From Maritimibacter sp. (GTDB taxonomy: Bacteria; Pseudomonadota; Alphaproteobacteria; Rhodobacterales; Rhodobacteraceae), in assembly GCA_017792445.1 (NCBI GenBank), contig CP051232.1, positions 3,260,001 through 3,324,000 on the forward strand: a DNA stretch of 64,000 nucleotides, given 5' to 3'. The position numbers and the translations under genes were made by a program. The notes beneath the pieces are model-generated. The model ran no database searches. It was given only the letters and a program-made list of their open reading frames with translations, and was not told the DNA's origin. Of this stretch, positions 58,083 to 64,000 are shown in pieces. How positions within the stretch are numbered: the stretch's first letter is position 1; the number at the start of each line of letters is the position of its first letter.

Positions 58083-59456
58083 TCACGCCGCGTGGGAACT
58101 GACCGTCACCTGATTGCGCCCGTCCGCCTTGGCCGCGTACAGCGCCCGGTCCGCCTGCGCCATCAGCGCCGCGGGATCGGGGCGGCCGCTGGCCGAGCCG
58201 TCGCTGATCGCCACGCCGATGCTGATGGTTACAGGGATCTCGGTGCCGTCGGGCAGGCGCACCGGGGCGCAGGACACCGCCTCGCGCAGACGGTCGGCGG
58301 TGCGCGCCGCCTGATCCAGCCGGCACCCGAAAATCACCGCCATGAATTCTTCGCCGCCCATCCGCGCCAGCAGATCGCCCTGCCGCAACGTGCCCTCCAT
58401 CCGGCGTGCGACTTCCGCCAGAACGGCGTCGCCTGCGGGGTGGCCGTAGGTGTCGTTGATGCATTTGAAACGGTCGAGGTCCAGCGCCAGCACCGCGAAA
58501 GCGCCCGATGCGCCGCGATTGCGCTCTGCGATCTGCCGCAGCCGGTCCATCGCGAAACGGCGGTTTGCAAGCCCGGTCAGCGGATCGGTGACCGCCAGCC
58601 GCGCCCCGTCGCGCAGCGCCGCGCGGCAGCGATCCTCGTAGGCCTTCCGCGCCAACGCGTGCCGCAGCCTCAGCGAGACTTCCTCGGGGTCGAAGCCGGT
58701 CTCGATCAGGTCGTCCACGCCGATGTCCAGCGCCATCACCGCGCGGTCCCAGCCCGGTTCCGACTGCACCAACAGGATCGCCGCCCGCATCGTGGCGCTG
58801 CGGCAGCGCAGTTCCGACACCAGCCGCAACGCCATCTCGGGCACGGCGGGGTTCTCGACCACGACGATGGCGTCCGGCGGGTCGCCAGCGCGCAGTTCGG
58901 TCAGCGCGGTGTCGTCGCGGCACACCCGCAGCGGCCCACGGATGCGCGCCTGCATTTCGGCCTGCCAAAGGTCGCACGACAGGTCCGCCGGCACGATCAG
59001 CGCGACCCGGCCGGTATGCGGGATCACGTCCATCGCATCGGCAAGCCCCGGGGTCCGCACCACGTCATCCAGTTCCGCACCCGACGCGACCCGCCGCATC
59101 AGGCTGCGGATGCGCGCGGCCACGATCGACGGAGCGGTGTCGGCATCCATCACCGCATCCGCGCCGGCGGCCAGCGCGCGCAGCCGCCCGCCACGCTCTC
59201 CGGCGCTGGTCCGCAGGATCAGGGGCAGGCGGCTGGTCTCGGGATCGGCGCGCAGGCGGCGGCACAGTTCGATGCCGCAACTGCCGTCCAGCGTTTCCGA
59301 CAGCAGGATCACGTCGGGCCGGTCGCCCTGCGCGTGGTCCAGAACCGCCTGCGCCGAGGACGCCAGAAGGACGTCATAGGCATGCGAGGCGAGGGTTGCC
59401 CGAAGCAGGATGCGCTCGGCCGGTATGGCCGCGGCAATCAGGATGCGTCCAGACAT
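58083..59456 (-). CDS. PleD-like diguanylate cyclase with degenerate receiver domains
   Basis: A 457-residue REC-REC-GGDEF protein. The output domain is intact: GGEEF active site, with inhibitory site RQGD five residues before it, so it should make c-di-GMP and be product-inhibited. The first receiver is dead: with the start at 59456, position 53 is Ser where Caulobacter PleD has the phosphorylated Asp, and the acidic pair at 9-10 is Ala-Ala. The second receiver also lacks a phosphoacceptor, as in PleD. The start is chosen because GAGG lies five bases upstream. A partner or non-phosphate signal must control it. Confidence 0.88.
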   Translation of the reverse strand: MSGRILIAAAIPAERILLRATLASHAYDVLLASSAQAVLDHAQGDRPDVILLSETLDGSCGIELCRRLRADPETSRLPLILRTSAGERGGRLRALAAGADAVMDADTAPSIVAARIRSLMRRVASGAELDDVVRTPGLADAMDVIPHTGRVALIVPADLSCDLWQAEMQARIRGPLRVCRDDTALTELRAGDPPDAIVVVENPAVPEMALRLVSELRCRSATMRAAILLVQSEPGWDRAVMALDIGVDDLIETGFDPEEVSLRLRHALARKAYEDRCRAALRDGARLAVTDPLTGLANRRFAMDRLRQIAERNRGASGAFAVLALDLDRFKCINDTYGHPAGDAVLAEVARRMEGTLRQGDLLARMGGEEFMAVIFGCRLDQAARTADRLREAVSCAPVRLPDGTEIPVTISIGVAISDGSASGRPDPAALMAQADRALYAAKADGRNQVTVSSHAA

Positions 59457-59564
59457 CATTTCCTCGCAATTCGATACAAATCGCCCTTTCCGGCTTATGG
59501 TCTCGTTCAAATTGGTTAAGAAAAGCTTTCCCCCTCAACGAGGGTCTGAAGGAAGGTCGGATAG

Positions 59565-59843
59565 ATGAAGCAGGAACAGGCGGAAACGCTGGCGGCACAG
59601 GCGCTTGGATGGCTTGCCGGGTCGGAAGAGCTGATGCCGGTATTCATGGGCGCGACGGGCATTTCCGTCGACGACATTCGCGCCCGCGCCAGCGAGCCCG
59701 AGTTCCTGGCCTCGGTGCTCGACTTCCTGCTGATGGACGACGCGTGGATCACCGGCTTTTGCGACGAGGCCGGGCTGCCCTACGACTCGGTCATGCGCGC
59801 CCGCGCGGCATTGCCGGGCGGGCAACAGATGCACTGGACCTAG
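59565..59843 (+). CDS. DUF3572 protein
   Basis: A 92-residue soluble protein matching DUF3572 (AETLAAQALGWLAGSEELM, FLLMDDAWITGFCDEAGLPY). The family is confined mostly to alphaproteobacteria and often sits beside divK or pleD-like genes, as it does here in divergent orientation. Function unknown. Its stop is one base from the stop of the dehalogenase gene on the other strand. Confidence 0.85.
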   Translation: MKQEQAETLAAQALGWLAGSEELMPVFMGATGISVDDIRARASEPEFLASVLDFLLMDDAWITGFCDEAGLPYDSVMRARAALPGGQQMHWT

Positions 59844-59844
59844 G

Positions 59845-62800
59845 CTAGAGGTCGATTTCGACCACGCCTTCGGGCTCGGCGGCGCGGCTGCGGCACAGGA
59901 TCATCCGGCTTTCGCGCTGCTTCGCCGACAGGACGTAATCGCGGTGCTCGACCTTGCCCGAGACGACGCCGCACTGGCATACGCCGCACAGCCCGTCCGA
60001 GCATTTCACGTCCACGGAAACGCCCGAACGCAGCAGCGCGTCGCTGGCGGATTCATCGGCTGACACCTCGATTTCGCGGCCGGACCCCGCCAGCTTCAGC
60101 GTGAACGGGTGGTTCTCGTACTCGGGCTCTTCGGGGACAGAGAAGTATTCCAGGTGGCGCTGTTCGTCGTCGAACCCGTTCGCCTCGGCCGCCGCCATCA
60201 CCGCGCCCATGTAGGCGTCGCCGCCGCAGGTGTAGACATGGGCGCCATCGCGGTAGCGCAGCAGCTCGCCAAAGTCGGCGCGGCTGCCTTCGTCCGAGAA
60301 GTGCAGATGCACCCGGTTGCCCCATGGCACGTCGCGCAGGTCTTCAAGAAAACCGGCATCGGCCCGGCGCGAACAGGAATAGTGCAGCGCAAAGTCGGCC
60401 CCGATCGCGTGCAGCCGGTGCGCCATCGCGATCATCGGCGTGACCCCGATGCCGCCGCCCATGAGGTAGGTGAACGACGCGTCCTCGGCCAAGGGGAAGT
60501 GGTTGATCGGGTGCGAGATGAACACCCGCCGCCCCGGCGTGAAGATCCGGTGCATCAGCTTCGACCCGCCGCGCCCCTTGTCCTCGCGCAGCACCGCGAT
60601 CTGGTATTTCGACCGGTCCGCCGGGTCGCCCGACAGCGAGTATTGGCGGAAGAACTCGGGCGCCACGACCACGTCGATATGCGCGCCGGCGGTGAAGGCG
60701 GGCAGGTCCGACCCGTCGGGCAACGAGAACTCGTACTTGGTCACGCCGTCGGCCATCACCTCGGCCTTCGACACCACCACCTGCAACACCGGGCTTTCGC
60801 CGGTCCCGGCGGTATAGACATGCTCGGGCGGTGTGCCGGCGGCGCGGCGGCGGCGGTGCTCGTGGGCGGGTATCATCGACTGGTACGCGGCGATCCCGGC
60901 TTCGCGGTCCATCGGGAAGGGCCACGGATACGGCGGTGGCGCCAGAGGGGCGGGGTAGACCGCCAGCGTCTGGTCCTCGTACTTCAGGTCGATGTCGCGG
61001 TTCAGCCCGCGTTCGTTGGGCGGCTCGGACGGCGGGCCATAGGGCCCTTCGTCGGTCATCTCGAGATCCCACCACCATTTCTTGACTGGATTGATGTCGC
61101 CGTTGCCGACGATGTCGTCGAACTTCGCAAGCATCGGCGCGGTGCCGGGAAGGTTCATCGCCGCCCAGCGGAACGGGCTTTCGGCCAGCACGCCCTCCAG
61201 GTTCCACGGGCAGGTCTTCATGCAACGCCCGCACATTGCGCCGTTTTTCTGGCTGACGCGGTAGGTGGTGCATTTCTGGCTGTCGGACTTCCAGATCTCG
61301 TAGCCGTTGAACATCAGCTTCGGACCGGCGGTGATCGCGCCGGACGGGCATTCGCGGGCGCATTTGTTGCAGGCCTCGCAGAACCGTTGCAGGCCGAAGT
61401 CGATGGGCCTGTCGTGGGTGACCGGCATGTCGGTGGTCACCACCCCCGACTTCAGGCGCGGCCCGAGGTAGGGGTTCAGGATGACCTCTCCGATGCGGCT
61501 GACCTCGCCCAGACCAGACAACAGCAGCAGGGGCGGGTGCAGCACCTCGTCATCCATCACCGTATGCGTCCGCGCCGGGTGGCCGAGGTCGCGCAGGTGC
61601 TGCGCCAGCACGCCGCCCACAAGGCTGAACCGCAGGTAGGCCCGCATCGACTGGGCGCAGCTGATCCAGTCGTCGCCCGACGCGCCTTCCATCGTCTCGT
61701 GGCCCTGATCGACGATCATGCTGATCGCCTGCGCGTGGTAGGGCGTGATCGGGTTGCCGGCCGCGTCGTGGCTGTACCACGCCCAGTCCGGGCATTCGCT
61801 CAGGCCCACCGCGTCCTGCCCCAGCCAGTACAGCGCGCCCTTGATGTTGTCGGCATTGCGCTTGGGGTCAGCGGTCGAGGGATGCACGGCCTTCGTCTCG
61901 CCATCCTGCAACAGGATCAGCGCGCCCAGCGAGGGACGGAAGGCGAAGGCCGAGGCCGCCTTGCGTACGTAGTTGCCGTTCTTCGCGCCTTCCTGTGCCG
62001 CCTTGCCAAGGTCGCCGAACAGCGAGCGGGCGAACATGTTGGCGCGTTTCGGCACGCGGGCGACATTGGCGCGGTCGATATAGGTGGTGGGTTCGTCGAC
62101 CCGCTTCAGCCGCTCGAACGGATGCGCGCCGTCCTTGAAGTCGCGCTGCGCGAACGGGTCGGCGGTGCGGGCGGTCTTCGCCTGCCGACCAAGGCCCGCG
62201 GTATATGCGAAGCCGGGGCGCTGGCCGGGCAGGATCGGCTTGTCCGGCGCCATTTCCATCGTCGTGGTGATCACGGCAAGGCCATAGCGGGTTCCAAGGA
62301 AGGGGTTCACCGCGCCGCCGTCCTCGACCGCCGCCAGCCCGGCGGCGACGGCAAGGCGCGTCAGGTCCACATCGGACTGAGCGGCGGAATGGGCGCGGGC
62401 GTTGAAGCCCAGCAGGCGCATGTAATTCGCCAGCGTCACGGCGGTTTCCATCGTCCGCAGGCAGGCGCGGTGGTCCTGCGCGTCGTGGATCCAGTCGGTG
62501 CCGGGTTCGTCCTTCCTCGGATCGCGGGGATGCGCGCACAGGAAGACAAGCGCATGCGTGTGGTGGCGGATGTCACCGGGGGGCGTGGCGAGCGACTCGC
62601 GCAGGCCGGCCATGATCACGTCGATCCCGGCGGCCAGCGTCTTGGGCTGCATGGTGCGGATCTTCTCGGCCAGCCGGTCCACGTCGGGGTTGGCCACGGG
62701 GGTGTCCAGCCATGCGCCGCCGGGAATTTCGCATACGCCGACCATTGCGCTGTCGAGATAATAGCCGAACGCCTTCAGGTGGTTGCTGCGCTCGAGCGGG

Positions 62801-63036
62801 TCTTCGGGGATCTCGGCGCGGGCGCGGACGGTGCCGTCGCGGGTGGCGTCCAGCATCGCCTGATATTCCTGCATCGCGTTGACGATGGACAGCGGGTCTT
62901 CGGGCCTGCGGAACGACAGGCCCTGCATCGGCGGCAACCGGTCCAGCCCCACGGCGCGGTCGGTGCGCTTCAGCCCCTCCAGCGGGTAGGGGCCAAGGTG
63001 GACGGGGCGGTTGCGATAGGAAAACAGCTTGCCCAT
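59845..63036 (-). CDS. Self-sufficient reductive dehalogenase: RdhA fused to an FMN/NAD(P)H/2Fe-2S reductase
   Basis: A 1063-residue cytoplasmic enzyme without a Tat signal. Residues 1-550 hold the corrinoid-binding core, with an internal duplication (about 181-270 resembles 456-545). Two 4Fe-4S clusters follow: C553, C556, C559, C563 and C589, C602, C605, C609. Residues 750-1063 form a phthalate-dioxygenase-reductase-like module: flavin motif RQYS (797-800), NAD(P) motif GGGIGVTP (860-867) and a plant-type 2Fe-2S site C1012, C1017, C1020, C1048. This resembles the respiration-independent dehalogenase BhbA of Comamonas, which removes halogen from halogenated hydroxybenzoate with NADPH. It lies eight bases after a MarR gene. 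The substrate here is unknown. Confidence 0.93.
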   Translation of the reverse strand: MGKLFSYRNRPVHLGPYPLEGLKRTDRAVGLDRLPPMQGLSFRRPEDPLSIVNAMQEYQAMLDATRDGTVRARAEIPEDPLERSNHLKAFGYYLDSAMVGVCEIPGGAWLDTPVANPDVDRLAEKIRTMQPKTLAAGIDVIMAGLRESLATPPGDIRHHTHALVFLCAHPRDPRKDEPGTDWIHDAQDHRACLRTMETAVTLANYMRLLGFNARAHSAAQSDVDLTRLAVAAGLAAVEDGGAVNPFLGTRYGLAVITTTMEMAPDKPILPGQRPGFAYTAGLGRQAKTARTADPFAQRDFKDGAHPFERLKRVDEPTTYIDRANVARVPKRANMFARSLFGDLGKAAQEGAKNGNYVRKAASAFAFRPSLGALILLQDGETKAVHPSTADPKRNADNIKGALYWLGQDAVGLSECPDWAWYSHDAAGNPITPYHAQAISMIVDQGHETMEGASGDDWISCAQSMRAYLRFSLVGGVLAQHLRDLGHPARTHTVMDDEVLHPPLLLLSGLGEVSRIGEVILNPYLGPRLKSGVVTTDMPVTHDRPIDFGLQRFCEACNKCARECPSGAITAGPKLMFNGYEIWKSDSQKCTTYRVSQKNGAMCGRCMKTCPWNLEGVLAESPFRWAAMNLPGTAPMLAKFDDIVGNGDINPVKKWWWDLEMTDEGPYGPPSEPPNERGLNRDIDLKYEDQTLAVYPAPLAPPPYPWPFPMDREAGIAAYQSMIPAHEHRRRRAAGTPPEHVYTAGTGESPVLQVVVSKAEVMADGVTKYEFSLPDGSDLPAFTAGAHIDVVVAPEFFRQYSLSGDPADRSKYQIAVLREDKGRGGSKLMHRIFTPGRRVFISHPINHFPLAEDASFTYLMGGGIGVTPMIAMAHRLHAIGADFALHYSCSRRADAGFLEDLRDVPWGNRVHLHFSDEGSRADFGELLRYRDGAHVYTCGGDAYMGAVMAAAEANGFDDEQRHLEYFSVPEEPEYENHPFTLKLAGSGREIEVSADESASDALLRSGVSVDVKCSDGLCGVCQCGVVSGKVEHRDYVLSAKQRESRMILCRSRAAEPEGVVEIDL

Positions 63037-63044
63037 GCGGGACC

Positions 63045-63485
63045 TCAGAACTTGGACGGACGGGAGTCGTCGTCGGTGATGAGCTTGGCGAGCAGCCGCG
63101 CCAGCAGCTCTTGTTCGCCGTCGGTCAGTCGGTCGGCGATCAGTTCGGCGTTCGCCTGTGCCAGCGGCGTGGCGTCGGACAGCGCGGTCCGGCCGGCGTC
63201 GGTCAGTTCGACAGTGCGCGTGCGCCCGTCGCCGTCGCCGCCGCTGCGGGCGATCAGGCCGGCGTCCTCCATCCGGCGCAATGCGCGCGAGATGGCGGTG
63301 CGGTCGACGCCGACGTGGTCTGCGATGTCCGACGGCTGGCGCAGGTCTTCATAGCCAAGCGCCACAAGGATCACCCAGTCCAGCCGCGACAGGCCAAGCG
63401 GGCGCAGTTTTTCTTCCAGCCTGCGTTGCTGAACGCGCGAGGCGATGGTGAGGCGATAGCCGAGGGAGTCGCTCAGGCGGTACAT
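63045..63485 (-). CDS. MarR-family regulator, probable controller of the dehalogenase
   Basis: A 146-residue MarR protein with a winged helix at about 45-105 (DIADHVGVDRTAISRALRRMEDAGLI). The ATG at 63485 is preferred over an in-frame TTG at 63500. No clear ribosome-binding site precedes it, so it may be leaderless. It is eight bases upstream of the dehalogenase and must share its transcript. A near-perfect palindrome lies 13-27 bases before its start. MarR proteins controlling reductive dehalogenases with aromatic ligands are known (RdhR-type), so a halogenated phenol may be the inducer; this is inference. Confidence 0.9.
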   Translation of the reverse strand: MYRLSDSLGYRLTIASRVQQRRLEEKLRPLGLSRLDWVILVALGYEDLRQPSDIADHVGVDRTAISRALRRMEDAGLIARSGGDGDGRTRTVELTDAGRTALSDATPLAQANAELIADRLTDGEQELLARLLAKLITDDDSRPSKF

Positions 63486-63497
63486 GGTTGTCAGTGT

Positions 63498-63512
63498 CAA
63501 TCAAATTGATTG
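63498..63512. promoter_or_regulatory. CAATCAA-A-TTGATTG palindrome, candidate MarR operator
   Basis: Perfect 7-base arms around a single central base, between the MarR start (63485) and the divergent HAD gene (63592). TTGACA-like elements flank it on the minus strand. Size and symmetry fit a MarR dimer site controlling the marR-rdhA operon and perhaps the HAD gene. Confidence 0.7.
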
Positions 63513-63591
63513 GCATTGTCAATTACCTTACTTCCTCCTGTCCGCCACAGGCGTCTTGTGGCATGGAGAGGCGTCTGCAAGGAGGGACCAG

Positions 63592-64000
63592 ATGGCAGAG
63601 ATCCGTGGGCTACTGTTCGACAAGGACGGCACGCTGTTCGACTTCGAGGCGACGTGGAACGCGTGGGCCGCGACGACGCTGACGGATCTGGCGCAGGGCG
63701 ACCTTGATCGGGCATCCGAACTGGGCGCGCGGATCGGTTACGACTTCGCGGCAAAGCGGTTCGATCCGCAAAGCCCGGTCATCGCGGGCACGCCGGACGA
63801 TATCGTGTTGCTGCTGGGGCCGGGCGTGCCTGAACTGACGGGGGACGAGATCGTCACCCGCCTGAACGCCACCGCCGCCGAAGCTACGCAGGTCGAAGCG
63901 GTGCCGCTGGTGCCGCTGTTCAGCGGTTTCCGGGACGCCGGGCTGAAGCTGGGCATCGCCACCAACGACTCCGAGGTTCCCGCGCGGGCCCATATCGAAG
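63592..64000 (+). CDS. HAD-superfamily hydrolase, N-terminal part (cut by window edge)
   Basis: The first 136 residues are present. The ATG at 63592 follows AAGGAGGG. Motif I is FDKDGTLFD (9-17) and motif II is IATNDS (about 124-129). It looks like a phosphoglycolate-phosphatase-like member with a helical cap. The DxDGTL form points to a phosphatase, not a haloacid dehalogenase. It is divergent from the MarR-dehalogenase operon, sharing its promoter region. The frame runs open to the end of the window. Confidence 0.88.
   Translation, partial: MAEIRGLLFDKDGTLFDFEATWNAWAATTLTDLAQGDLDRASELGARIGYDFAAKRFDPQSPVIAGTPDDIVLLLGPGVPELTGDEIVTRLNATAAEATQVEAVPLVPLFSGFRDAGLKLGIATNDSEVPARAHIE

Follow-up and report, generated by a model that had tools for sequence, protein, structure and literature searches.

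A probable self-sufficient catabolic reductive dehalogenase and its adjoining MarR-family gene on a Maritimibacter chromosome

Background

One class of reductive dehalogenases has been named 'full-length/self-sufficient catabolic RdhA', and one member of the class has been characterised biochemically (PMC10463259; this paper and PMC13101508 are cited throughout from the portions of their text available to us). Here, we describe a further copy, encoded by a gene that we call rdhA, on the minus strand at positions 59845-63036 of a 64,000-nucleotide stretch of the Maritimibacter sp. chromosome (GenBank assembly GCA_017792445.1, contig CP051232.1, positions 3,260,001 to 3,324,000); this whole stretch is referred to below as the window. 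The rdhA product very probably belongs to the BhbA/JtRdhA subfamily as a cytosolic, self-sufficient catabolic reductive dehalogenase, working by the mechanism and under the MarR control proposed below.

JtRdhA, from the marine Jhaorihella thermophila, shares with the window copy a duplicated cobalamin-binding domain, the lack of a twin-arginine translocation (Tat) signal, two 4Fe-4S clusters, a fused flavin mononucleotide (FMN) and 2Fe-2S reductase module and the same active-site residues (PMC10463259). This likeness is drawn from the published description, JtRdhA having been purified and the window copy being known from its sequence. JtRdhA is driven by NADPH with tight coupling and acts on bromo- and iodophenols both with and without oxygen, with Michaelis constants (KM) of 9-21 uM for debromination (PMC10463259). 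A genome scan gave 482 related stretches, the best 80 of which were retained, and no record title among these 80 names Jhaorihella.

BhbA (Comamonas sp. 7D-2, plasmid pBHB, WP_015585978; L088 in our set) has the same full-length architecture and is 50.5% identical to the rdhA product over 1059 columns. Its gene is carried on a conjugative plasmid, adjoining protocatechuate 4,5-dioxygenase genes and a gene for a transporter substrate-binding protein, whereas the window gene is chromosomal and lies behind a MarR gene. Homologues of BhbA (putative bhbA) have been described as widely present across the Roseobacter clade (PMC13101508, citing Chen et al. just before). NpRdhA of Nitratireductor pacificus (PDB 4RAS, 6ZXU, 6ZXX, 6ZY0 and 6ZY1), 44.0% identical over 668 columns, has catalytic residues identical to those of the window copy but has no fused reductase and must draw on separate redox partners (PMC10463259), so that its listing in the initial annotation as an enzyme of the same type does not stand. 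Finally, Ros_A3X954 of Roseobacter sp. MED193 is, like the window copy, a Tat-less protein of a marine roseobacter, and debrominates 2,6-dibromophenol (PMC13101508). Its published description sets it apart from the window copy by a more compact layout, with the RDase domain at 174-269 and the cluster motifs at 283-294 and 337-345 (PMC13101508).

Architecture and active site of the rdhA product

The minus-strand frame of rdhA is unbroken and encodes 1063 amino acids. Its product scores 201.3 bits against the NCBIfam model TIGR02486, 'reductive dehalogenase' (cut-off 160.35), and a sequence search of the PDB returned NpRdhA (E 2.8e-166, best stretch residues 158-732) and, in the C-terminal part, phthalate dioxygenase reductase 2PIA (E 7.2e-49, residues 750-1060). 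The Pfam profile PF13486, which the initial annotation had proposed as a check, gave no match to the RdhA core fragment at E<=10 with the HMMER filters, and gave none with BhbA as a control either, so that this miss carries no weight.

Four parts can be distinguished along the chain. The N-terminal part (residues 1-330; positions 62047-63036, minus strand, like all parts of the gene) is a copy of the cobalamin-binding fold of the domain that follows, the working cobalamin and active-site domain (residues 331-550; 61387-62046), which holds F335, S463, M464, Y467 and K529. The next part (residues 551-612; 61201-61386) carries R593 and the motif for two 4Fe-4S clusters, matched by Pfam Fer4_7/Fer4_16 at residues 553-612, and all of its cysteines (553, 556, 559 and 563; 589, 602, 605 and 609) are present. 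The last is a phthalate-dioxygenase-reductase-like module (residues 750-1063; 59848-60789), recognised through PDB entries 2PIA, 6KBH and 7YLR, through Foldseek and through Pfam Fer2 at residues 982-1052, with the 2Fe-2S cysteines 1012, 1017, 1020 and 1048 in place. We take RQYS at residues 797-800 of this module to be the FMN motif and GGGIGVTPM at 860-868 to be the NAD(P)H motif.

The protein begins MGKLFSYRNRPVHLGP, in which no twin-arginine leader is visible by eye, and a respiratory RdhA was rejected on that absence. The genes adjoining rdhA, the two places at which the membrane anchor rdhB was looked for, encode a MarR-family regulator and a DUF3572 protein. The initial annotation had described a non-respiratory enzyme with its reductase fused on the same chain and with all eight cluster cysteines, the RQYS motif and the 2Fe-2S cysteines intact; each of these points is borne out by the full set of parts found here.

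The N-terminal copy is recognisable at the level of profiles: hhalign aligned residues 1-330 with residues 331-550 over 170 columns, with a probability of 99.3% and E 1.4e-20. In the printed alignment, Cys192 and Gly252 of the N-terminal copy occupy the places of Tyr467 and Lys529. A vestigial cobalamin-binding domain has been described for catabolic RdhAs (PMC10463259), and, judged by this alignment, the N-terminal copy of the rdhA product is that domain, as in NpRdhA.

How well is the active site kept? The question was approached with an alignment of 94 rows (the window, 92 related loci and NpRdhA; six are exact repeats, leaving 88 distinct). Window residues F335, S463, M464, Y467, K529 and R593 align to NpRdhA F291, S422, M423, Y426, K488 and R552, and all six, like the eight 4Fe-4S cysteines, are invariant in all 94 rows. 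The six are those given as conserved between NpRdhA and JtRdhA (PMC10463259). The check on the catalytic Tyr/Lys pair that the initial annotation had proposed thus comes out in its favour, with Tyr467, Lys529 and Arg593 all retained. The 2Fe-2S cysteines 1012, 1017, 1020 and 1048 are kept in 93, 92, 92 and 91 of the 94 rows, respectively, the others, including NpRdhA, being gapped. Outside the cluster motifs, Cys192 (82/94 rows) and Cys415 (91/94) are also strongly conserved.

The MarR regulator and its predicted operators

A MarR-family regulator gene (63045-63500, minus strand; Pfam MarR_2, E 5.4e-12, and NCBIfam) precedes rdhA, in the same orientation, by 8 bp. Its start is TTG as called, and an ATG at 63485 is the more likely one. 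Two palindromes are predicted operators, operator 1 (TAATTGACAATGCCAATCA) at 63507-63525 and operator 2 (TGATTGACACTGACAACCA) at 63485-63503, over the MarR start, with centres 22 bp apart. MarR regulators often sense phenolics.

At 38 of 85 loci, the window counted, rdhA is directly preceded by a homologous MarR gene in the same orientation. The criterion for presence was a BLAST match to the MarR of the window at E 1e-8 with half covered, and a diverged MarR therefore counts as absent. Because about half of the loci lack a MarR recognisable in this way, the regulator is, on these BLAST scores, not a part of the whole family. Around the MarR start, the pattern TRATTGACANTGTCAATYA recurs with no more than two mismatches at 27 of the 38 MarR loci, a count that is partly circular in that the consensus was drawn from regions later counted. 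The other 11, including L009, L021, L052 and L058, have at least three mismatches. The pattern was met in none of 760 shuffles (single-base rather than dinucleotide) and in none of the 47 upstream regions scored as lacking MarR, which include five plasmid loci unscored for MarR; two of these five, L091 and L092, have an annotated MarR adjoining rdhA.

Across the 4,675,334-base genome, a relaxed pattern with at most one mismatch occurs only at 63485-63503 and 63507-63525, and a reversed control gave no site. Since this pattern was fitted to both window sites, what is informative is that no further close sites turned up; weaker sites elsewhere would be missed. The absence of a close operator elsewhere in the genome suggests a dedicated pair, a repressor and its enzyme. 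The probable targets of MarR are thus its own gene and rdhA, with few if any others, its binding and the direction of regulation being what we infer from the palindromes, and the divergent HAD gene (see below) is perhaps also under its control. No report of a MarR regulator for a self-sufficient RdhA was found among the listed titles and abstract openings of an open-licence library, a weak negative, and the available part of PMC10463259 mentions no such regulator.

Distribution and chromosomal address

The initial annotation regarded this enzyme type as known from few cases, which must now be revised. Full-length rdhA is present in 108 of 295 genomes of the same family, the window's own genome counted, and therefore the self-sufficient RdhA is common rather than rare; the subfamily is already named (PMC10463259) and its spread across roseobacters is published (PMC13101508). 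The enzyme type is common in marine relatives, and the window's rdhA is an ordinary further copy of a known class. Within the genus, rdhA is found in four of five genomes, again with the window's own included. Among 72,556 plasmid records, eight, including BhbA's plasmid, cover 80% or more of the query at a single place, and five of these eight were examined as plasmid loci.

Some genomes in the 295-genome table hold incomplete copies. Most of rdhA is present, cut or split, in G287, G099, G102 and G269, and two of these (G269:C1:2006487-2009686 and G099:C4:333239-336423) carry the gene in two overlapping pieces, which suggests recent frame breaks or assembly errors. Other partial matches, at 44-64% identity, occur in G033, G096, G160 and G212. 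The one in G033 (C1:3834-5612; 44% identical) spans residues 158-741 only and may be an RdhA, from a genome of the same family, that has no fused reductase.

On the chromosome, rdhA sits in a conserved neighbourhood of HAD, DUF3572, GGDEF and ECF sigma genes. Beyond MarR, a divergent HAD-IA phosphatase-like gene (63592-64000, plus strand) runs past the end of the window; on the other side of rdhA are the DUF3572 gene (59565-59843, plus strand; Pfam) and a gene for a response regulator-GGDEF protein (58083-59510, minus strand; Pfam). Neighbours at other loci were sought within at most 6 kb on each side (less at contig ends), and only as homologues of the window's own neighbours. The HAD or DUF3572 gene of the window has a homologue at 59 of 79 other loci, and both genes have one at 41. 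A near relative has a 94% identical rdhA orthologue with the same neighbours.

These shared neighbours can be set beside a FastTree phylogeny of 86 rows, which leaves out the six exact repeats and the distinct L085 and L087 (nearest rows 78.7% and 81.4%), two loci with both HAD and MarR beside rdhA. Support values are local, and 22 of the 83 inner branches are open. The window falls in a clade of 70 rows (support 100), made up of all 60 rows with HAD or DUF3572 (window counted), nine Leisingera-like rows and L019. A second clade of 12 rows (support 98) unites ten loci without HAD or DUF3572 neighbours and two plasmid copies, and neither clade takes in BhbA, Nitratireductor OM-1 or Aminobacter. 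Taken together, the shared neighbours and the 70-row clade suggest vertical inheritance of rdhA at one place in this lineage. The earlier proposal of a stable chromosomal trait is in keeping with the neighbour counts and with the four rdhA-bearing genomes of the genus.

In G152, the genus-mate without rdhA, a search of 11.5 kb gave no match to MarR, HAD or rdhA; the same 11.5 kb holds the DUF3572, GGDEF and ECF sigma genes in the same order. For a second stretch of G152, the only piece that blastn aligned to the window's genome was 605 columns long and lay at the DUF3572/GGDEF end.

Some further observations concern these neighbours and records. Most of the best models for the HAD gene are of phosphatase-like proteins, and its score for haloacid dehalogenase type II is 38.3 bits, below the cut-off of 125.4; the gene could be mislabelled haloacid dehalogenase. 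Adjoining it in the same genome, past the window end (L107:6390-8042), is a gene for a trimethylamine-corrinoid methyltransferase-like protein (252.5 bits for TIGR02369, whose cut-off is 525), possibly a corrinoid-linked enzyme close to rdhA. Lastly, as seen with L004 and L007, a record titled Pimelobacter, an actinobacterium, and a Maritimibacter record encode one and the same rdhA protein, at 94% identity to the window copy and with the same neighbours; the name of the Pimelobacter record is probably wrong.

Proposed mechanism and alternative explanations

From the parts described above we infer an activity and an order of electron transfer. NAD(P)H would pass a hydride to FMN, and electrons would then travel singly from the C-terminal 2Fe-2S cluster through the two 4Fe-4S clusters to a base-off cobalamin in the second of the two RdhA domains, the working one. 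Once reduced, the cobalt would take an ortho bromine or iodine off a phenolic ring, and Tyr467, with Lys529 and Arg593, would supply the proton. The MarR repressor, bound at the two operators over its own start, would keep the MarR-rdhA pair off until a halophenol comes. The dehalogenated product, for example 4-hydroxybenzoate, could enter ring cleavage by PobA and LigAB, encoded elsewhere on the chromosome. By analogy with JtRdhA, the enzyme is probably active on bromo- and iodophenols, and is probably oxygen-tolerant as well.

The genome offers a setting for such a pathway. It encodes CobN and, close by, a cob(I)yrinic acid a,c-diamide adenosyltransferase, two genes of the pathway that suit cobalamin synthesis. 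(Also near cobN, at L109:6947-8338, is a gene for a TsoY-family protein, NF047644, 538.5 bits, of a family with selenoprotein members.) Two PobA proteins score over the cut-off, and one, about 182 kb away from rdhA, is clustered with LigA (NF009918, over the cut-off), a class III extradiol dioxygenase of the LigB type and 4-oxalomesaconate tautomerase. Because these PobA-LigAB genes are present, debrominated 4-hydroxybenzoate could be degraded by the 4,5-route.

Several results weigh against the scheme, or narrow it. No protocatechuate 3,4-dioxygenase beta subunit was found over the cut-off in the genome, and rdhA lies here outside any aromatic gene cluster, unlike the gene on BhbA's plasmid, so that the catabolic link is circumstantial. 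The chloro analogues tested with JtRdhA inhibit it and are not turned over (PMC10463259), and 'dehalogenase' may therefore mean debromination and deiodination only. Ros_A3X954, also marine and Tat-less, is reported to be highly oxygen-sensitive (PMC13101508), so oxygen tolerance cannot be assumed. The AlphaFold2 model of the rdhA product (26 sequences) is mediocre, with a mean predicted local distance difference test score (pLDDT) of 69.5 and a predicted template-modelling score (pTM) of 0.64; residues 558-619 fall below a pLDDT of 50, as does a large part of the active-site and 4Fe-4S region. In a Foldseek search with this model, the top 14 matches were chains of NpRdhA, with E values from 1.3e-44 to 9.3e-43 and a target-based TM of 0.65-0.66, superposed at a root-mean-square deviation (rmsd) of 10.3-11.4; P450-reductase fusions and relatives of phthalate dioxygenase reductase came after them. 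The model-based search thus supports the fold, but, because of the low pLDDT and the rmsd above 10, it leaves the active-site geometry without support.

What would the enzyme be for? The strongest rival, to which we give an appreciable chance somewhat short of even, is that the rdhA product serves as a MarR-controlled detoxifier or halogen scavenger for natural marine bromo- and iodophenols rather than as a source of carbon, taking the halogen off inhibitory phenols of algal or sponge origin, later degradation being incidental. The gene's conserved neighbourhood is not an aromatic gene cluster, whereas the BhbA and Nitratireductor OM-1 copies adjoin ring-cleavage genes; at up to one mismatch, the MarR palindromes have no further match in the genome, and sensing of phenolics, frequent among MarR regulators, would fit as well. 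However, with PobA and LigAB in the genome to take up a 4-hydroxybenzoate product, use as a carbon source is possible, and the neighbours at other loci were compared only with those of the window.

The remaining explanations are far less probable. A corrinoid reductase that resembles RdhA but acts on a non-halogenated substrate, with halogen activity as a side reaction, could fit the wide and apparently vertical inheritance among marine bacteria as a general metabolic role; we consider it improbable, given that the six halophenol-site residues of NpRdhA are invariant in our alignment and that the closest characterised relatives are dehalogenases (PMC10463259). Decay or inactivity is rather more improbable still: one genus genome in five lacks rdhA, but the frame is unbroken, all cofactor ligands are kept and the near relative retains its orthologue among the same neighbours, and decay was rejected on the frame and the ligands. 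The initial annotation had itself named closer similarity to QueG, the epoxyqueuosine reductase, as an outcome that would overturn it. The Class III cobalamin enzymes are related, and a weak match to TIGR00276 is found, at 19.7 bits (E 3.4e-4); this is far below the cut-off of 200, whereas TIGR02486 is over its own, and the duplicated core and fused reductase also speak against a QueG homologue. That identity was rejected as well, and it is hardly credible.

Implications

For the enzymology of this class, worked out already for BhbA, NpRdhA and JtRdhA, the window copy adds little. The broader reading of a self-sufficient catabolic dehalogenase under MarR control concerns its lineage: in one large lineage of marine Rhodobacteraceae, rdhA may have long resided at a single chromosomal address, and many members, this one included, may run it through a MarR sensor of its own, acting at operators that no other gene of the genome seems to share. 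We hold this reading tentatively, at only just under an even chance. If it is true, the job of rdhA would be a dedicated response to natural marine bromo- and iodophenols, and the ligand of MarR would name the real substrate of the enzyme. The natural substrate of the marine copies was not found stated in the available portions of PMC10463259 and PMC13101508, and the MarR-operator pair offers a direct handle on it and a worthwhile lead. With over a third of the sampled genomes holding a full-length copy, phenol debromination may therefore be an ordinary capacity of the family.

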